20,757 bases of DNA, taken from the IMG/VR virus record IMGVR_UViG_3300005098_000037, positions 1 through 20,757 of that record, one strand, 5' to 3'. A program made the translations under genes and the position numbers. How positions within the stretch are numbered: position 1 is the stretch's first letter; the number at the start of each line of letters is the position of its first letter. Shown here piece by piece: positions 1 to 20,508 of this stretch. The stretch comes from a virus. The notes beneath the pieces are model-generated. The model saw only the letters and a program-made list of their open reading frames with translations. It searched no databases and had not been told where the DNA came from.

Positions 1-1948
1 TGTCGACGATGAGGTCCTTGCCCTTAGCAAGGCCGTTGGCCAGGGTCGCCGCGTAGTCCTTGCCCTGCTTCAGGCCGGCACCGGCCAAGCCACCCAGTTG
101 CTGGCCGGCAATGCCGATCCCCGCTTTGACCCCGCCGCCCAGCATACCGAACGCCTCCCGGGCGTTCTGGCCGAACTCCCGGCCCATGCTCTTGATATCC
201 TCTATCAACTTTTGCACGCGGGCCTTTATCAGCCCACCGACGATAGCGTTCTGCACGTCGTTGAACGCCTTAACCCAGCCCTCGCCCCACTCCTTCGCGC
301 GGTTGATATCCTTCCACACGGACTTGAACGTCTCGCGCATGTGTTTCAGGTTCTGGCCTATCCAGGTCAGCGGCTCCCCGCCCTCGAAGAGCACGGACCA
401 TGCCTCGCCGAGCCCCGTGCTTATACTGGATACCGCTTTCCCCAGCATTTTGATCGGCCACATCACGATATCGAGTGCGGTCTCGCTGGTTTCCCATATT
501 GCGTCCATGGTATCGCGGTTCTCGCTTAGCGACTTCCTAACCTTTTCTAGCTCCCCCCAACCGCGCTTGACGGTATCGGCGAACTCCTCAACTGCCTCGG
601 TAGCGTCCTCCCACATCTTAGGCAGCCGCGGCCCCACATCGTCCAGCCACTTACGTATCCCACGGAAGATCTTCGTTGCGCTGACGTCCACATCGGCGAT
701 GTCCTCGGTTACCACGGTGAAGAGGTTATCGAGTGCGCTTCCAATACCTCGTACTTCCCCTGCTATCTCAGTCAGCGATTGGAAGAAGTTGTCGAACCCC
801 GCCTCTAGGTGCTTGTTCTTGGCGATCCAGTCGGCGGTCCGCAGGATCAGGTCCCGCATGGGGCCTTCGAGAAACCGCTGCAGGGGCCCCTGGAACTTCT
901 CGGCCAACGACAGCGCCGCTTCGCCGATAGCTGTCTTGACCTTGCCCCAGGCAACCGACAGGGTATCCCGGATCTTGCTCGCCGCCTCGGCGGCGTAATC
1001 GGTATGCGCCTGGATCTGCTTGTTGTAGTGCGCGAGCAGGTCGGCACCCCGCAACGTGACCCCGTTGACTTCCTTTTGCGCATTGAGCAGCCCCATCATA
1101 CCCGATACCGCGCGCCGGCCGAAGATCAGGCCCGCCTCTGCTGCAGTCAGGTGGGCCTTCTGCAGCTCCCCAAGCATGCCCACGAGGTCCTTGGTCGAGC
1201 CGTCGGCGTTGCGGATGTTTATCCCCAACATGCGCATGACCTTCAAGGTCTGCTCGCTGGGGTTAATCAACCGGAGCAGGGCGCCGCGCAGGGTAGTGCC
1301 GGCCATGGAGGCCTTGACGTTGCGGTCGGCCATCAGGCCGATGGCGGCCGATACCTGCGACATCTCGATGTTCATCGTCTTGGCCAACGGGGCGATGAAC
1401 CGCATGGCGTCGGCCATCTCGCGGACGTTGGTGTTGGACTTGGATTGCACGTACGCGAACTGGCTGGCCACCTCGGACGCCTGCGACGCCTGCAGGCCGA
1501 AGGCCCGCACGGCGCTCGCCACGGTGTTGGCGGCATCGGCAAGCGACATGCTGCCAATCGTAGCCAGGTCGAGCACGCCCGGCAGGGCGCCGATGACCTC
1601 CTTGGTGTTGAAGCCCGCCTGCCCGAGGTAGACCATCCCTTGGGCCACCTCGGACGCGCCGCGGCCCATATCCACCGCTGTACGGCGCGCCACGCGCCCC
1701 AAGCGCGCCAGGTCAGCCGATGTCGGGGTGACGATAGCGTCCAGGCGCGCCATCTCGAACTGGAACTCGGCGCCATGCCGTGCCGCCAATACCAGCGGCG
1801 TAGACACCGCCGCGAAGCCGATGGCCAGCTTGGTCCCGATGGAGCGGATGTCACCGGCCAGCTGGTTCACCTGCCCGCGTATTGTACGCATGGCGCGGGT
1901 GAACGGGCCGTAGTCGGCGCCTATCCTGGCCGTCAGTTGTGGGGGCAC
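1..1948 (-). CDS. Phage tail tape measure protein (TP901 type), 3' part outside window
   Basis: The frame is open from a GTG at 1948 to the left edge, giving 649 codons with no stop seen, so the C-terminus is missing. The tape measure sets tail length, fills the tube and helps DNA ejection. After an opening VPPQLTARIGADYGPFTRAM, the first 300 or so residues hold alpha-helical text typical of TP901/PhageMin_Tail proteins, for example MSLADAANTVASAVRA, EVASQFAYVQSKSNTNVREM and NVKASMAGTTLRGALLRL. Further on it becomes charged and helical, then Gly/Ala-rich (AGIGIAGQQLGGLAGAG) near the left edge. The GTG is chosen because it is the first usable start after the chaperone stop at 1981 and keeps a typical N-terminus. 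Its Shine-Dalgarno (GGGAAGG) is weak and distant. An ATG at 1891 is the alternative but has no ribosome site. The family call is firm; the exact start is not. Confidence 0.93.
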   Translation of the reverse strand, partial: MPPQLTARIGADYGPFTRAMRTIRGQVNQLAGDIRSIGTKLAIGFAAVSTPLVLAARHGAEFQFEMARLDAIVTPTSADLARLGRVARRTAVDMGRGASEVAQGMVYLGQAGFNTKEVIGALPGVLDLATIGSMSLADAANTVASAVRAFGLQASQASEVASQFAYVQSKSNTNVREMADAMRFIAPLAKTMNIEMSQVSAAIGLMADRNVKASMAGTTLRGALLRLINPSEQTLKVMRMLGINIRNADGSTKDLVGMLGELQKAHLTAAEAGLIFGRRAVSGMMGLLNAQKEVNGVTLRGADLLAHYNKQIQAHTDYAAEAASKIRDTLSVAWGKVKTAIGEAALSLAEKFQGPLQRFLEGPMRDLILRTADWIAKNKHLEAGFDNFFQSLTEIAGEVRGIGSALDNLFTVVTEDIADVDVSATKIFRGIRKWLDDVGPRLPKMWEDATEAVEEFADTVKRGWGELEKVRKSLSENRDTMDAIWETSETALDIVMWPIKMLGKAVSSISTGLGEAWSVLFEGGEPLTWIGQNLKHMRETFKSVWKDINRAKEWGEGWVKAFNDVQNAIVGGLIKARVQKLIEDIKSMGREFGQNAREAFGMLGGGVKAGIGIAGQQLGGLAGAGLKQGKDYAATLANGLAKGKDLIVD

Positions 1949-1980: not shown

Positions 1981-2304
1981 CTACCGCCTCCGTCGGGCTC
2001 CCCTAGCGGCCAGGTGGGGAGCACGTTTCCGTAACTCCGCGCGGCGCTTCTGCGCCGCCTGCGCCTTCTCCTGCTCGATCCGGATCCGGCGCTGCTTGTC
2101 CGCTTCCTTCAGGTCGAGCAGGAACAGGTACTCTTCCATCTCCGCCCGGTCGTCCAGCGACAGCGCGCGGTACACCGACGGCGGCAAGCCCCAGTCGCGC
2201 GCCGCGCGCATCTCCATCTCCGCCTGGGTGGCCTGCGTGCAGTCGGCCGAGTACGTGACCCGGCCGCCCGGGCCGGCGGTCCGCCGGACGCCTAAGCGGC
2301 GCCG
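1981..2304 (-). CDS. Tail assembly chaperone, -1 frame extension (T part of GT fusion)
   Basis: This is the downstream half of the frameshifted tail chaperone. The frame is open without stops from the slippery site at 2304 to a TAG at 1981-1983, 107 codons, and so links to the upstream G gene in the -1 frame. The fusion would be about 292 residues. GT-type fusions bind the tape measure and recruit tube subunits during tail assembly. The part after residue 29 (RDWGLPPSVYRALSLDDRAE followed by a charged helix rich in Lys, Arg, Glu and Gln) resembles T-domain text in other siphophages. A free-standing start at the ATG at 2217 is possible but lacks a convincing ribosome site, so expression by frameshifting is preferred. 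It sits directly before the tape measure, the conserved location of this pair. Confidence 0.82.
   Translation of the reverse strand, partial: RRRLGVRRTAGPGGRVTYSADCTQATQAEMEMRAARDWGLPPSVYRALSLDDRAEMEEYLFLLDLKEADKQRRIRIEQEKAQAAQKRRAELRKRAPHLAARGARRRR
2259..2287 (-). promoter_or_regulatory. GC-rich inverted repeats, possible frameshift stimulator
   Basis: About 16 bases after the slippery heptamer the minus strand holds CCGGCGGACCGCCGG (2273-2287), a self-complementary block, followed by a second GC-only block (CCGGGCGGCCGGG). Either could form a stable stem, or part of a pseudoknot, at the distance expected for a -1 frameshift stimulator. No folding was computed. In DNA this GC-rich, short self-complementary stretches also arise by chance. 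Confidence 0.45.
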
Positions 2305-2858
2305 AAAAAACTCCGGCGTTCCTCCTCGGTGAAGTTGCTTATCCGCGCCACGGCCTCTGCGACCTCGCGGATCTGGGCGCTGCCCCAGCCCGCTTGTCGC
2401 AGGGCCCGGATCTTCTCCTCGGTCGTCTTCGCCTCGATCGGTTCCTTCCCCTCACCCGGCGCATAGTACAGGGGCACGTCCAGCGCCTCGGCGGCCACGG
2501 ACCATGCCTGGAGCTGGTTGTACTCCTCCAGCGCGGCCAGGTACTTCTCGTCGGAGTAGTCGGGGATGTCGCAGATCGTGGGCTTGACCAGGCCCATCGC
2601 CTGGCCCTCTTCGCTGTCGGGCTTGACGAACCGGGTGACGACCGGCGGGCGCGGGGCCCGCTCGGCCGTCAAGGTGCGGATCACGTCTTCCAGGCGCTCG
2701 GTGGTGATCGGCACCACGTCGATGCTTACGACCTCGTTGCCGTCGGCGTCGAGGTCCACGCGCTTGATGAACGCCCGCCCCCGGTTCGCATGGCTGGTCC
2801 CGGGGCGGATACCCGTTATGGTGTTCCAGGTTACCGGCTTGGACGATACGTTGCGCAT
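2292..2858 (-). CDS. Tail assembly chaperone, zero-frame product (G-like)
   Basis: This 188-residue protein lies between the tail tube genes and the tape measure, the place of the G chaperone. It is mildly acidic. It has a beta-like first third (FIKRVDLDADGNEVVSIDVV) and a helical C-terminal half (EKIRALRQAGWGSAQIREVA) ending FTEEERRSFFGAA. The ATG at 2858 has a good Shine-Dalgarno (AGGAAGGAG) nine bases upstream. The last Phe-Phe codons are the slippery site that allows part of the ribosomes to make the longer GT form. The name rests on position, size and the frameshift rather than on a recognised catalytic or binding motif. Confidence 0.8.
   Translation of the reverse strand: MRNVSSKPVTWNTITGIRPGTSHANRGRAFIKRVDLDADGNEVVSIDVVPITTERLEDVIRTLTAERAPRPPVVTRFVKPDSEEGQAMGLVKPTICDIPDYSDEKYLAALEEYNQLQAWSVAAEALDVPLYYAPGEGKEPIEAKTTEEKIRALRQAGWGSAQIREVAEAVARISNFTEEERRSFFGAA
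2304..2310 (-). promoter_or_regulatory. Programmed -1 frameshift slippery heptamer T_TTT_TTC
   Basis: On the minus strand the codons AGT TTT TTC near the end of the G gene form the heptamer T TTT TTC, which fits the X_XXY_YYZ rule. Slipping back one base leads straight into the open frame that ends at 1981. The G stop (TAG, 2292-2294) lies only nine bases after the heptamer. G/GT frameshifting before the tape measure is established for lambda and many siphophages. Its use here is inferred from sequence. Confidence 0.85.
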
Positions 2859-2900
2859 GTGTGGTCGCTCCTTCCTGCGGCCAAGGGGGTGATGCGGCCC

Positions 2901-3497
2901 TTAGCTCTCGGTCCCGGACGTGAAGCTCGTGATCTCGGTGATGGTGCCGTAGATCAACCCGGTGGCGCTGATGATTACGCCCTCTTCGCTCTCGGCCAGG
3001 CTCTGCTGATCGGGAGGGAAGTACACGGCGCCGTACTTGAAGCCGTAAGCCACGCTGTCGAGCGTCCACAGGATCTCGACGTTGACGCAGACCTTCTTGC
3101 TGTCGGCGAACGCCGGGTCGGTGAACGAGTTGCCGTCGCCGTCGGTTAGCGTGAAGTCGCCCTTGGTCGATACCCACGTGTCGCCGTCCACTTCCCAGGT
3201 GGCCGCCAGGTCGGGGTTGCACATGGCCGCCCGGAACTTCTGCGCCGTGGCCAGGACGTTCTGCACCCGCAGGCCGAACGTCAACTCCAAGGGTTCGAGG
3301 ATCGGCGCGTCCGGTCCGCTGATATAATGCACGCCCTTAGCGCCGCGGCCGCGGTGGAATATCGCCGTCTCCTCGGGGCGGGCTCGCCCGCTGGGGGCCG
3401 ACAGGTTGCCCTCGTCGAACGTCAGCGCCACGTAATAGGGCGTGGCCGAACCGTCGTACAGCCGGATCTGGCCCTGGATACTGGTGTAGGTCGCCAT
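2901..3497 (-). CDS. Tail tube protein, short paralogue
   Basis: This 198-residue, beta-rich protein is placed and sized like a siphophage major tail tube subunit, which stacks in rings around the tape measure. It is clearly homologous to the gene just upstream (3516-4541). Shared blocks include FDEGNLSAP, GRARPEETAI, KGVHYI, GPDAPILEP, DGDGNSFT, VYFPPDQQSLAESEEGVI and TGL.YG. It lacks the extra N-terminal domain of that paralogue: residues 18-21 here take the place of about 149 residues there. The ATG at 3497 follows a good GAGAGGAG site. The next gene downstream is the G chaperone. Which of the two paralogues is the main tube subunit cannot be told from sequence; this compact one is the better candidate. 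The tube call is positional, since no family signature was recognised with certainty. Confidence 0.78.
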   Translation of the reverse strand: MATYTSIQGQIRLYDGSATPYYVALTFDEGNLSAPSGRARPEETAIFHRGRGAKGVHYISGPDAPILEPLELTFGLRVQNVLATAQKFRAAMCNPDLAATWEVDGDTWVSTKGDFTLTDGDGNSFTDPAFADSKKVCVNVEILWTLDSVAYGFKYGAVYFPPDQQSLAESEEGVIISATGLIYGTITEITSFTSGTES

Positions 3498-3515
3498 AGT
3501 AGGTGCTCCTCTCGT

Positions 3516-4541
3516 CTAGTACTGGTATGCGAACCAGAAGATCTCTTCTATCTTGCCATACACCAAGCCGGTGCAGGACACGATCACGCCCTCTTCGCTC
3601 TCGGCCAGGCTCTGTTGGTCGGGAGGGAAGTACACCTCGTGGTACGCGCGCCCGTACTGGACCCCGTCCTTGGTCCACAGGATCTCCACGCACACGGTCT
3701 TCTTCTCCGAGTCGGCGAAGCCGGGCAACGTGAACGAATTGCCGTCCCCGTCCACCAGGGACGTATCGCCCTTGGTCGAGGTCCCGGCCGCGTCCCAGTT
3801 GGTGTCGTAGTTGGGATTGCCGCAGGTCAAGGCGGCGAGCAGCGCATTACGGTTGTAGACCGTATCCACGCGCACACCGAACGTCAGCTCGACCGGTTCG
3901 AGGATCGGGGCGTCTGGGCCCCCGATGTAATGCACGCCCTTGGCTGCCCGGCCACGGTGCAGGATGGCGGTCTCCTCCGGCCGCGCCCGGCCCTCGGGGG
4001 CCGACAGGTTGCCCTCGTCGAAGATCAGGGCGAAGTACTGCCCGTCCACGGGGTACGCCTGCTCGGCGTTGGGCGGGGTGCTCGGTACGTTCGCCGTGGA
4101 CAGCCGCACGTAGTACTTGTCGCTGTCCAGGCTGGCCGTGCCCTGCTTGTCCCAGTCGGCCGGGGGCTTGAATGACACCACGCCGTCCTGCGCGAACGTG
4201 TTGCCGCCCGAGGCCGTGCCGTCAGTGACCCCGCTTATGGCCGACCAGGCCGAGCCGTCGTAATACTCGACCGTCAACGCACCGGCCCCCACCGCCGCGG
4301 TGTCGAGGTCGAACGTAATGCGGGCGAAGGGCGCGGTGTGCCCTACGTACAGGTAATCGCCCGAGTCGGCGCAGAAGTCCCCCGTCAAGCTGCCGCTTGC
4401 GCTGCGGGCTGCCGATGTGACGTCGGTATAGGACGGGCCCGAGGCGTCGTAGATCTCCACATTGCCCCCGGCCAGGGAGCGCAAGTCGTCGGTGCTGTCA
4501 TAGATCCGCACCTGGCCGTCTATCATCGTGTAGGTGCTCAT
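3516..4541 (-). CDS. Tail tube protein, long paralogue with inserted beta domain
   Basis: This 341-residue protein pairs end to end with the 198-residue gene downstream. Residues 1-17 (MSTYTMIDGQVRIYDST) match its N-terminus, and residues 167-341 match the rest. Residues about 18-166 are an insert, encoded by roughly 4044-4490, with the pattern YVGHTAPFARITFDLDTA, ALTVEYYDGSAWSAISGVTD, FKPPADWDKQG and YYVRLSTA. Similar text occurs as a beta-sandwich module in various phage structural proteins, where it is probably surface exposed. The insert follows an N-terminal strand, so it may project from the tube or from its first or last ring. The start ATG at 4541 has GGAAGGG upstream. It could be a minor tube component, a tail-tip ring or a decorated tube subunit. 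Confidence 0.75.
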   Translation of the reverse strand: MSTYTMIDGQVRIYDSTDDLRSLAGGNVEIYDASGPSYTDVTSAARSASGSLTGDFCADSGDYLYVGHTAPFARITFDLDTAAVGAGALTVEYYDGSAWSAISGVTDGTASGGNTFAQDGVVSFKPPADWDKQGTASLDSDKYYVRLSTANVPSTPPNAEQAYPVDGQYFALIFDEGNLSAPEGRARPEETAILHRGRAAKGVHYIGGPDAPILEPVELTFGVRVDTVYNRNALLAALTCGNPNYDTNWDAAGTSTKGDTSLVDGDGNSFTLPGFADSEKKTVCVEILWTKDGVQYGRAYHEVYFPPDQQSLAESEEGVIVSCTGLVYGKIEEIFWFAYQY

Positions 4542-4558
4542 CGCTGTCTTGCCCTTCC

Positions 4559-5098
4559 TTATGCCGTCGAGCCGTGCGGCTCAATGTAGCGTAAGACCAC
4601 GGTCACCACCCAGGCGCTCAGCCCCTGGCCGCTGCCGTCCATGCCCACGACCACGCCGCGCGCCCCCGTTGCAGGTGCCAGGGGGGCGTCGCTCACTTGC
4701 GCGACGTCCAGTACGCCGGCCGGTCCTGTGCCCCCCACGTAGTCGGTCAGCGTGATCTCGCCACCGAGCGGGAAGCGCCCCAGCACCTTGTCGCGCAGTA
4801 TGAGATGAGCCGCCCGGTTGGTGGGTACGCCCGCAGCAGTTCGCCGGCGGGCGAAGCAGGTGAATTGTAGCTGCAGGCGCACGTCGGCCCCGGCATCGTC
4901 GCCGTTCACGCGCCCGAACCGGGCCGCATCACCCTTGCCCAGGTAGTAGAGTTCCACCCAGGACGCCAAGTCGCGACTGTCGAACGGCACCCCGGGCCAC
5001 GCCACCGCCACGCCGTCTGTCGTCACCAGCGTGTCCTGGATGTACTTCTCCAGGCTGGCCACTACGTTCTGGAGCCGCTGGGCCGGCTTAATGCTCAT
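4559..5098 (-). CDS. Probable tail terminator / tail completion protein
   Basis: This 179-residue protein lies between the gp10-like gene and the tube genes, where siphophages keep the tail terminator that caps the tube and joins it to the head (lambda gpU role). It starts with a helix (AQRLQNVVASLEKYIQDTL) and continues with alternating strands, e.g. LASWVELYYLG, VRLQLQFTCFARR, WVVTVVLRYIE, consistent with the alpha/beta terminator fold. The ATG at 5098 lies nine bases after the previous stop (5108-5110). The spacing suggests translation coupled to its neighbours. No catalytic motif is expected. The call rests on gene order, size and secondary-structure pattern. Confidence 0.62.
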   Translation of the reverse strand: MSIKPAQRLQNVVASLEKYIQDTLVTTDGVAVAWPGVPFDSRDLASWVELYYLGKGDAARFGRVNGDDAGADVRLQLQFTCFARRRTAAGVPTNRAAHLILRDKVLGRFPLGGEITLTDYVGGTGPAGVLDVAQVSDAPLAPATGARGVVVGMDGSGQGLSAWVVTVVLRYIEPHGSTA

Positions 5099-5107
5099 GT
5101 GTCACAC

Positions 5108-5686
5108 CTACTTCTTCCCCCGCCGGCCTCGGGCCGGGCCAGCCAGGGGACCGCCGCCCGTCGCCCGCCAGGCTGTCCACCGGGCCACGCCGTCGCGCTT
5201 CCACATCTCCGCCAGCTCGCCCAGTATGTGCTTGGGGACGGAGCGGGTTATCAGTTGCATGGAGATACGGACCATGCCATACGGCGCCTGCGCCGACCAG
5301 CCATACTCCAGCGGAAGGATGTAGGCCACGGCGTTGGTTATCTCGATCCACTTCCGGGCGCCGCGCAACTGCGTTACCAGCTTGCCTTGCGCGAAGCCCT
5401 CCCGCTCGGCGGCGCTGGCCGGTGTGCGTCGAGGCCCTTGCCCCAGGAGGCCGAGCAGGCCGGTCTGGGCGAAGTACCACCCTGCGCGGCTGCGGCCGGT
5501 ATCCACCGGGTTCTTGGCGATTATCTGCTGGAGCAGGTCCAGGCCGATCTTGACCAGCGCACCGGCTGCCTTGGGGCCGTTCAGTTGCGCCAGGAACCGC
5601 TTGATGAACGCATTGAACTCCGTGGTGACGAGCTCGATGCTCATCGCCGGCTGGCCGGTCACGCCGCGTCGTGGGTTGTAAGCCAT
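5108..5686 (-). CDS. HK97 gp10-like neck / head-tail connection protein
   Basis: This protein has 192 residues. The stretch NPVDTGRSRAGWYFAQ, then AVAYILPLEYGWSAQAPYGM and a closing long helix, is the usual signature of the HK97 gp10-like family: a proline-valine-aspartate-threonine-glycine motif, then a Tyr-rich motif before a Gly/Pro turn. These proteins sit at the head-tail interface or act in tail completion. The first ATG (5686) has an AAGGGAG site. An internal ATG at residue 15 (MSIELVTTEF) is a possible alternative start and would match the usual family N-terminus better. The C-terminus is a basic Gly/Arg/Lys tail (PARGRRGKK). Confidence 0.78.
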   Translation of the reverse strand: MAYNPRRGVTGQPAMSIELVTTEFNAFIKRFLAQLNGPKAAGALVKIGLDLLQQIIAKNPVDTGRSRAGWYFAQTGLLGLLGQGPRRTPASAAEREGFAQGKLVTQLRGARKWIEITNAVAYILPLEYGWSAQAPYGMVRISMQLITRSVPKHILGELAEMWKRDGVARWTAWRATGGGPLAGPARGRRGKK

Positions 5687-17397: not shown

Positions 17398-18219
17398 TTA
17401 CTTACCCTCGCTGTCGGCGAACGCGCGGCACACCCGCAGCAGGCCGGCGGTAGTATCACCTGCCGGTCCGGCTGCCTGAAGCACGGCCTGGACCTCGGCT
17501 ACCTCATCGGCCGTGAAGCCCCGGACCACGAGCCACCCGGCCTCAGCCAGGGCGGCCATGATGCCCGCCACGCGGTCGGGGGGCAGGGTGGTCAGCTCGC
17601 GCACCAGCTCTTCGGCGGCCACGTCGTCCACCTCGGCGGGCGCTGCCTGTTCGCCACCGGTCGAGGGGACCACCGCTTGGGGCTGGGTCGCCGTATCGCC
17701 CGCGGGGCTGCCCTCGCCTTCTTCGCCGCCGCTTGCGTCCGGCGGCGGCACCTTGTACTGGTCCCAGTCGAAGTCCAGGGACTTGTACAAGTCGCCCAGC
17801 TGGTCGGTCGTGAACGGCAGGCTCTCGGCCAGCACGTCGACCGACAGGCCGTCTTCATCCACCAGGCTGCGGATCAGCTTGGCCTCGGCTACCAGGTCCG
17901 GGTTGCCACGCAGGTGGATGAACACCTCGACGAGCTGCTTGGCTTCGGTGTCGGTCACCTTGCCCAGGTCCCAGGCGGGGATCTGCTTCATGCCGAGCTC
18001 CTTGGCCGCGCGCCAGCGGTGCTCGCCGTCGATGATCTCGTACTCGCCGTCGGCGGCCAGACGTACGATGATCGGCTGGGCAAAGCCGTACGCGTGGATG
18101 CTGGCCTTCTGCCGGTCGTACATGAAGGCGTCCTGTACGTTGGGGTTCCATGGGTTGGGTCGGATCTTATCGACGTCGAGCTTGGTTGCTTTGCCGCGCA
18201 GCTTTGGCTTGCTGGCCAT
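17398..18219 (-). CDS. ParB-like nuclease-domain protein
   Basis: This protein has 273 residues. The N-terminal 100 or so residues fit the ParB/Srx fold: LDVDKIRPNPWNPN, IHAYGFAQPIIVRLAADG and EYEIIDGEHRWRAAKELGMK (the GEHRWRAA motif that binds nucleotide in ParB proteins, residues 65-72). Residues about 155-205 are a low-complexity Pro/Gly/Glu/Thr linker, and the C-terminus is a helical domain (DRVAGIMAALAEAGWLVVRG). Phages often carry ParB-like proteins next to methylases or terminase genes; their role is not settled and may involve partition, nicking or regulation. There is no ParA here. ATG 18219 follows AAGGAGAG. Strong for the domain, weak for function. Confidence 0.82.
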   Translation of the reverse strand: MASKPKLRGKATKLDVDKIRPNPWNPNVQDAFMYDRQKASIHAYGFAQPIIVRLAADGEYEIIDGEHRWRAAKELGMKQIPAWDLGKVTDTEAKQLVEVFIHLRGNPDLVAEAKLIRSLVDEDGLSVDVLAESLPFTTDQLGDLYKSLDFDWDQYKVPPPDASGGEEGEGSPAGDTATQPQAVVPSTGGEQAAPAEVDDVAAEELVRELTTLPPDRVAGIMAALAEAGWLVVRGFTADEVAEVQAVLQAAGPAGDTTAGLLRVCRAFADSEGK

Positions 18220-18646: not shown

Positions 18647-19591
18647 TCAGGGCGCGTCGGGGCGGCGGAACACCAGCACGTGCTCGTGCTCGACGAGGGG
18701 ATAGGCCGGGTTGCGTTTGCGTTGGACGTGCTGGTAGAAGCCCGGGCGGATCGGGCGCAGGTGATAGCCGACGTAGTGCAGCCCGCCAGCCTCGGCCAGC
18801 GTCACGGTGTCGAGGTCGAGCCGCACCACCCGCGCCTGGCGGACGAAGTTCTTGATGTGGACGAGCACCAGGCCGTTGGCCGGGGGGACACGGGCGAAGG
18901 CGCCCAGGATCGCGGCCCACTCGTAGAGGAACGATGACCGGGCGGTGGGCCCGCAGGCGCGGTCTTCGCCCGACAGCACGCCGGCCACGGAGCCGTACGG
19001 CCGGTCGTGGTTGCCGATCTGGTCGGGGTGGTCGCCGTAATCCTCCATCGCGCCCGTCAGGTGCAGGTCGCGGATTATGCGGCGCTGCATCTCGCTGTGC
19101 CGGCCCGGGTGGTGGCCGGTGGGGCCGAATGGCGGGCTGGTCAGGATCAGGTGGTAAGGGGCGTCCCGGGGTAGGAGGCGGCGGAGGTGCTTGGCATTAC
19201 CTACGCGGAACCATACGGCCCCCGGGCGGAGCGCGGCCGGCAACCGGCGCTTGGCCTGGTCCAGGGCCGCGCGGGCCAGCATTGCCCACCGGCGTTCGAG
19301 CTCCACGCCCGCGGCGCAGCGGTTCAGCCGCAGGGCCTCGATCAGCGTGGTCCCAATGCCGGCCATCGGATCGAGCACCCGCTGGCCCGGGCGCGAGTAG
19401 CGCTCGATAAGCCAGCGGGCCAGCTCCACCACCATCTTGCCCGGGTGGACCATGCACTGGACCGGGTACCACTCGCGCCGGGCCACTGCGTGCCGGGCGC
19501 AAGTGCCCAGGTCGATCATACCCAGGAAGGGCGCGCGCCCGGGGAGGCCGTCGGTGGACCAAGGGACGGGAGGGGGAGTGGGTGATGTCAC
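18647..19591 (-). CDS. DNA methyltransferase with TSPPF motif (N4-cytosine or N6-adenine)
   Basis: This protein has 314 residues from GTG 19591, which overlaps the TGA of the previous methylase (GTGA). A longer open frame up to 19789 overlaps that gene and is rejected. Motif I is VLDPMAGIGTTLIEALRL (residues 72-89), binding S-adenosylmethionine, and motif IV is LILTSPPFGP (148-157). The TSPPF form is usual in N4-cytosine and some N6-adenine methylases. A target region follows with MEDYGDHPDQIGNHDRPYGS. The conserved order puts the cofactor motif before the catalytic one (beta-like). It probably marks the phage DNA against host restriction. No partner endonuclease is seen. Target specificity cannot be read off. 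Confidence 0.85.
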   Translation of the reverse strand: MTSPTPPPVPWSTDGLPGRAPFLGMIDLGTCARHAVARREWYPVQCMVHPGKMVVELARWLIERYSRPGQRVLDPMAGIGTTLIEALRLNRCAAGVELERRWAMLARAALDQAKRRLPAALRPGAVWFRVGNAKHLRRLLPRDAPYHLILTSPPFGPTGHHPGRHSEMQRRIIRDLHLTGAMEDYGDHPDQIGNHDRPYGSVAGVLSGEDRACGPTARSSFLYEWAAILGAFARVPPANGLVLVHIKNFVRQARVVRLDLDTVTLAEAGGLHYVGYHLRPIRPGFYQHVQRKRNPAYPLVEHEHVLVFRRPDAP

Positions 19592-20508
19592 GTAGTGGCC
19601 TCCGGGGCGGGGGCCAAGCACGCCGGGGAGAACCAGACACATTCCCGCTGCCTGTTTGTGTTCTTCGAGGACGCATAGCCACTCTTGCCTACCCACCGTA
19701 CCTGCTGCCAGCCCGGGAGGTCGTAGTCCCCGACGTGCCCACACAGGGCAATCCGCAAGTTGGGGCATGCGCCTGCCTTCCTGCACCATTGCTCCACGGC
19801 GGCTGCTACGTGCGCACCAGCACCTACAGCGTAAGCCGTAACCGTCAGATCGGATCCTCGGTAGGGGGGGTCAAGGAATACCCCAATCATGGCACCAGTT
19901 CCTGTCCGCAAGGTGCCTGGGCCTAGTACGCGAGTCCAATCACCACAAAGAACACGGACACACGCAAGCCGCGCCTGCAGCTCATGTAGCCACGTGACGA
20001 GCTCCTGCTGGCGATCCGGGCGGTAGAAAACCGAGTACGGCGCTGCACGAGGCTGCCCATGGTAGTTCCCCTTCATCGCCTTGAAGTACCCACTCCCGAT
20101 CCAGCACGCCATAGCCCACACCCACCGGCCGGCGATTTCGGCATCATAGTACCCAATGTCTGCCTCTAACCTGGCCAGTAGGGAGGATAACCGCCACCGT
20201 AACCAGCCCTCCGTAGCGCGCAGTTCCGCCTCGTTGACTGGGCGGACCGCATGCTTGGCCACAACGTCCGGATCAGCGCTTACGGCACGCCAGCAGTTGC
20301 AGATCAGTCCGTCCTTATCGTTCACGGTCTCGCCGCCGGCGCCACAATGCTCGTGCTCCCGGGGTCTGCCTAAGAGGACGGCTCCACTGCCGAAGAACGG
20401 CTCGACGTAATACTTCACATCGCCCAGCCGCTCCCAGACGATATGGGCTACGCGTCGCTTCCCGCCGAACCACGGGAACGGTGCACGTAATGGCTGACTG
20501 TCGGTCAT
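19588..20508 (-). CDS. D12-class N6-adenine DNA methylase (Dam-like)
   Basis: This 306-residue protein has all the expected motifs of the D12 class: PFPWFGGKRR (residues 10-19), YVEPFFGSGAVLL (34-46), a later NDKDGLICNCWRAV (63-76) and the catalytic FLDPPYRG (211-218), with RQRECVWFSPACL near the C-terminus. It transfers a methyl group from S-adenosylmethionine to adenine N6. The order (motif I early, DPPY late, target region between) is the alpha class. In sampled lines its G+C (about 62%) is lower than in the next gene (about 77% at 19081-19140). ATG 20508 overlaps the TGA of the upstream gene. The target site is not known from sequence, though GATC is usual for this class. Confidence 0.9.
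   Translation of the reverse strand: MTDSQPLRAPFPWFGGKRRVAHIVWERLGDVKYYVEPFFGSGAVLLGRPREHEHCGAGGETVNDKDGLICNCWRAVSADPDVVAKHAVRPVNEAELRATEGWLRWRLSSLLARLEADIGYYDAEIAGRWVWAMACWIGSGYFKAMKGNYHGQPRAAPYSVFYRPDRQQELVTWLHELQARLACVRVLCGDWTRVLGPGTLRTGTGAMIGVFLDPPYRGSDLTVTAYAVGAGAHVAAAVEQWCRKAGACPNLRIALCGHVGDYDLPGWQQVRWVGKSGYASSKNTNRQRECVWFSPACLAPAPEATT

Follow-up and report, generated by a model that had tools for sequence, protein, structure and literature searches.

Why would a phage keep two adjacent genes for tail-tube proteins, and why would only one of them carry an additional domain? This question is raised by a 20,757-base viral contig from environmental DNA (the whole stretch analysed, here called the window), which ends inside the tape measure gene and includes two tandem open reading frames encoding a short protein (S) and a longer one (L). 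The features of the pair are the following:

2901..3497, minus strand: S, short tail-tube protein, 198 aa (open reading frame; AF2 model; orthologue at L003:4001-4600, 67% identity).
3516..4541, minus strand: L, long tail-tube paralogue with an inserted domain, 341 aa (67% identity to S over the core; orthologue at L003:2493-3521).
3519..4043, minus strand: tube core of L, residues 167-341 (L 169-337 are homologous to S residues 22-192).
4044..4490, minus strand: inserted CBM/jelly-roll-like module, L residues 18-166 (profile and fold match to orf18 of the LME-1 phage).

Comparison of both proteins by BLASTP has revealed 172 aligned residues at 67% identity (E 1e-76), and at the DNA level 497 bases align with 70% identity (E 7e-59). 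The blocks GRARPEETAI and VYFPPDQQSLAESEEGVI, from which the sequence-only reading had deduced a tandem duplication, are identical in S and L, so that this deduction is borne out. The insert lies exactly where that reading had placed it, at L residues 18-166 between the first strand and the tube core, and its GC content is 0.68 versus 0.67 in the window. The two open reading frames are separated by 18 bases, with a stop and a start between them. The pair is not an effect of chance or assembly, because a second phage contig (L003), found in the search of viral contigs, has the same L and S genes, each with 67% identity, and an insert that is 64% identical. The pair with the insert is known from these two phages only.

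The AF2 model of S (18 sequences; mean pLDDT 78.6, pTM 0.75, with loop 35-69 as the least confident part) predicts the beta-sandwich fold of tail tubes, with a helix and a long loop; strand 1 comprises residues 2-14 and strand 2 residues 21-34. When this model was compared to the PDB with Foldseek, the best match was modest (E 1.4e-3) and the leading named matches were tube or Hcp proteins. In a second structure comparison, nearly all of the 50 matches listed were tube or Hcp proteins (Z 7.1 to 8.8), including Hcp1 (6bdc, Z 8.8), PVC (6j0n_n, Z 8.5), HFTV1 (9fkb, Z 8.0) and lambda gpV (8iyd, Z 7.5), and the top entry in BFVD was 'Tail tube protein' (E 1.6e-5). Another fold for S was rejected by these PDB and BFVD matches. 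No significant Pfam or PHROG match was found for S or for the L core, and no PHROG match for 10 family members. The model of L (mean pLDDT 46) was moderate over the insert and poor outside it, and the tube fold was assigned to the L core by homology, on the basis of its identity to S. The expectation of a common fold was thus upheld by the model for S, and by sequence identity for L.

S and L are located between a terminator (weak match) and a chaperone (by position) and the tape measure, as tail-tube genes are, and this order is kept in relatives. The direction of transcription gives the order methyltransferase and ParB-like genes, terminase, portal, capsid genes, neck proteins, putative terminator, L, S, chaperone-like open reading frames and tape measure. 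The tail genes flanking the pair are the following:

5108..5686, minus strand: tail completion/neck protein (phrog_169, E 1.1e-20).
4559..5098, minus strand: putative tail terminator, gene preceding L (PF13554, E 0.018, under the curated cut-off; phrog_179, E 0.038).
2292..2858, minus strand: putative tail assembly chaperone (G-like), gene following S (assigned by its location between the tube and tape measure genes, without a family match).
1981..2217, minus strand: small open reading frame, second chaperone-like part (by position only).
2..1948, minus strand: tape measure protein, truncated where the record stops (PF10145 PhageMin_Tail, E 1.6e-41).

A gene of similar size is present at the position of the putative terminator in L003, L013, L014 and L064, and the position of the putative chaperone is kept in L003, L013, L014, L062 and L064. 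Because no sheath-like gene is located between the putative terminator and the tube genes of this incomplete record, the tail is most likely siphovirus-like, sheath-less and long. A scan of window positions 2800-5200 revealed neither promoter nor terminator patterns. Elsewhere in the window, upstream of the terminase, the gene for a ParB-like protein has two genes for DNA methyltransferases in its vicinity, one N6_N4_Mtase and one of the D12 class (17398-18219, 18647-19789 and 19588-20508, minus strand). The C-terminal part of a Mu F-like head protein (PF04233; 11286-13538, minus strand) is long and contains a zincin-like HELGH motif (VAFHELGHTWEY); it is possibly a metallopeptidase domain carried in the virion.

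Further relatives of the tube core came from profile searches. Profile scans of open reading frames revealed two tandem tube genes without the insert in L014 and L061-L063, and one tube gene in the available DNA, which includes some short contigs, of L010-L013, L015, L057-L060, L064 and L065. In a tree of 18 sequences the L014 pair grouped together (100/99) and so did the two L proteins (86/96), the L061 pair had no resolved grouping, and a single clade of the two S proteins was neither supported nor rejected (p-AU 0.397). The tandem tube genes of these three lineages may therefore reflect either separate duplications or one old duplication blurred by homogenisation. S gave no tblastn match against 50,697 phage records, nor did the family member L015, and non-exhaustive scans of genome contigs with short back-translated patterns found no relative. 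In L003, a free-standing HNH endonuclease gene (L003:3522-3988; PF13392, E 2.2e-14) lies exactly between the tube genes and begins at the L stop codon. Downstream of the L013 tape measure, DUF2460, minor tail protein L-like and NlpC/P60 genes (L013:5852-7275) are reminiscent of lambda/GTA tail tips.

The insert was described from the letters as an extra beta-sandwich-like domain, and the fold matches support this description. A profile built from five relatives matched orf18 of the LME-1 phage portal-tail complex (PDB 9efk chain M, E 1.9e-15) and, weakly, Afp11. Residues 18-166 of the L model were aligned with 9efk_M over 140 residues (Z 10.3, rmsd 3.8). Contractile injection systems supplied the next matches, their baseplate proteins (Z 6.8-8.2), followed by CBM32/CBM35 domains at Z about 6-6.5. 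CBM-like matches outside phage and injection-system proteins lie at Z 6-7, and in this common arrangement such a level points to the fold class only.

The search for the insert in other phage proteins, proposed with the first description, was productive, and the module is present in 46 viral loci. It is found in a baseplate J-like protein (PF04865) in L007, in an L020 protein that weakly matches a head-tail adaptor (phrog_442, E 3e-4) and in a virion structural protein in L004 (phrog_3287). L040:3978-5750 encodes a member of another tube family (PF18906, E 9e-11) with two tandem C-terminal copies of the module, this locus having a single tube gene, which is an independent use of the module on a tail tube. 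Judged from these sequences, the insert is a mobile decoration module, and given its presence in baseplate and connector proteins and in further tail-tube proteins, L has probably acquired it. When L was searched by tblastn, only two records were matched, both of the same 735-kb phage genome and in the insert region. This uncultured phage genome (LR756501.1 / LR756503.1, 117213-117596) encodes the module with 34.8% identity (E 5e-4). In L008 a small phage protein family (phrog_17057) has the module at its N-terminal end. A protein of about 370 aa with an N-terminal module was found in L008, L017, L021-L022, L024-L027, L029, L032, L036-L037, L041-L042 and L049 (phrog_17057 in two that were scanned), contigs that look like one widespread phage group.

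The relation between both tube proteins was analysed by aligning S and L of the two phages, which gave 29 informative residues, 12 of orthologue type and 17 of paralogue type (alike within a genome). Two matching blocks stand out:

3267..3431, minus strand: S residues 23-77, strand 2, long (ring-stacking) loop and strand 3 (11 paralogue-type and 0 orthologue-type residues).
3870..4034, minus strand: matching block in L, residues 170-224 (85% identity to S 23-77).

The finding of paralogue-type residues at all 11 informative positions of S 23-77 is a new observation. The N-terminus, helix region and C-terminus (S 1-22, 78-113 and 183-198 together) contain 11 orthologue-type and 0 paralogue-type residues, and S 114-182 contains one and six, respectively. 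The block differed from the rest of the protein (6 paralogue-type, 12 orthologue-type) with a Fisher p of 4e-4, its borders being drawn after the sites were seen; independently of these borders, the informative sites fall in 7 runs (permutation p 0.0018). Within each genome the copies are 85% identical in S 23-77 and 38% identical in S 78-113; between the genomes the corresponding values are 62-65% and 53-62%. The tandem pair of L014 showed a similar gradient (75% in the block, 47% in 78-113), which was absent from the more similar copies of L061.

In P74-26 nearly all inter-ring contacts are made by the long loop (PMC10034513), and in R4C the long loop touches three subunits of the next disc (PMC10276861). 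The S loop would correspond to this stacking loop by its place between strands 2 and 3, in a part of the model with low confidence. In functional terms, the block is most simply explained if both proteins have to fit a common set of neighbours, which would most likely be S and L themselves. The likeness could also come from old gene conversion without a shared interface, since third codon positions are saturated and conversion and selection are inseparable in this block, and the HNH gene between the L003 copies is a possible driver of such conversion.

Clear ribosome-binding sites of similar strength precede S and L in both phages, that of L being AAGGAAGGG. The duplex energies for L and S are -8.9 and -8.3 in the window and -13.5 and -11.7 in L003. 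Between the two phages each gene has a dN of about 0.3 and a dS of about 1, and the resulting dN/dS near 0.3 indicates that both are under purifying selection. Neither the ribosome-binding sites nor the dN/dS values give any hint that L is a rare form.

We give an even chance to a mixed tube, in which S and L assemble together and the CBM-like insert of L points outward and binds weakly to the host. Both proteins, as structural tail-tube subunits, would polymerise into the same tube, each contributing the same beta-sandwich, with the long loop docking in the sockets of the next ring. The loop is common to S and L of one phage, and so, probably, is a large part of the socket face, which would allow stacking between either type of ring or subunit. 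The CBM-like jelly-roll of L, inserted after strand 1 and before strand 2, would lie at the outer surface of the tube and make many weak contacts with sugars of the host surface. A role of the pair in tail length, also considered in the sequence-only reading, is unsupported.

L might instead be a specialised ring, present once or a few times at the head-proximal or tip-proximal end of a tube made of S, although this arrangement seems unlikely. Tube paralogues with special positions (tube initiators) are known in the contractile injection systems PVC and AFP; the matches of S to PVC/AFP tube proteins include baseplate (6j0n_n, 6rao_F) and trunk/cap entries (6j0b_a, 6rap_A), and the L gene adjoins the putative terminator gene. 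However, the partner of a terminal ring differs on one face, and L would then be expected to depart from S in its loop or sockets. Instead, the genome-specific pattern is seen in both proteins, in the loop block as well as at most of the informative sites of 119-167, and in both phages the ribosome-binding site of L is at least as strong as that of S.

These comparable ribosome-binding sites would also suit a tube in which S and L alternate within each ring as a 3+3 pseudo-hexamer, which would be the unfused equivalent of the T5 and P74-26 tube proteins with their two domains; we consider this arrangement decidedly improbable. The tandem pairs in three lineages of the family are in line with it, as is the divergence of S and L at the N-terminus, helix region and C-terminus, because the N-terminus is an intra-ring contact in P74-26, whose tube protein is described as a duplication plus fusion (PMC10034513). 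A heterohexamer of Hcp paralogues has been solved and is among the structure matches of S (9vne). However, many relatives show a single tube gene, which indicates that pairing is not required by the fold. The stricter form of the alternating ring, an obligate two-gene pseudo-hexamer whose stacking loop evolves in concert in each genome and which displays a regular array of sugar-binding domains, is similarly doubtful.

Gene conversion between tandem copies is ordinary, and the HNH endonuclease gene lies between the copies in L003, as a largely redundant duplicate with a loop block kept alike through conversion would allow. That L is made but dispensable or barely incorporated is nevertheless quite improbable, since both genes have full reading frames and a dN/dS of about 0.3 and the insert is kept at 64% identity, even if the SPP1 report appears to describe no detectable laboratory fitness effect when the extended form 17.1* is absent (PMC6316719).

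The proposed co-assembly of S and L in one tube can be compared to several known tails. SPP1 tails contain gp17.1 and the longer gp17.1* at 3:1 (PMC6316719), and the TpeX extension of the major tail protein (MTP) of 936 phages is CBM-like and binds host cells (PMC6669499). As in SPP1 and 936 phages, S and L are two forms sharing the tube domain; in SPP1 the plain and the extended version of one protein are built into a single tail, and in the lactococcal 936 phages the CBM-like extra domain is on a fraction of the tube subunits. However, SPP1 uses one gene, a +1 frameshift and a C-terminal FN3 domain, and the 936 extension is also C-terminal and made by programmed frameshift, its CBM being BppA-like. 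In contrast, S and L are separate open reading frames, each with its own start and ribosome-binding site, and the insert is between strands 1 and 2. The pair would work like the two-form tubes of SPP1 and 936 phages but is not one of them.

T5 pb6 and P74-26 also have a duplicated tube domain (PMC10034513), but there the copies are fused in one chain, whereas neither S nor L contains two tube domains, the genes are separate and only one copy is decorated. Ig-like tube decorations are common, and the tube proteins of YSD1, lambda, JBD30 and Douge have extra domains, mostly outward (PMC8718954, PMC11445458, PMC13033339); these phages have one tube gene, with domains that are C-terminal or after helix 1 and mostly Ig-like. 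LME-1 orf18 and the injection-system baseplate proteins share a module like the L insert, but they are other virion or injection-system proteins and not tube subunits. The sequence-only view of such a tail as unusual therefore holds in part: two tube forms or outward domains are known in SPP1, 936 phages, lambda and T5, and the use of two genes and a strand 1-2 insert is less usual. No phage with two separate homologous tube genes was found in the literature (open-licence papers).

In the cited known phages the ratio between plain and decorated subunits is linked by the frameshift, and separate genes would uncouple the two amounts and allow independent evolution of the decorated copy. The site patterns suggest which surfaces of a tube subunit need to match between partners (the loop block and parts of the socket face) and which are free to differ (the N- and C-terminus and the helix region). 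The recurrent tandem tube genes of this uncharacterised family may also provide a model for an intermediate toward fused two-domain tube proteins.
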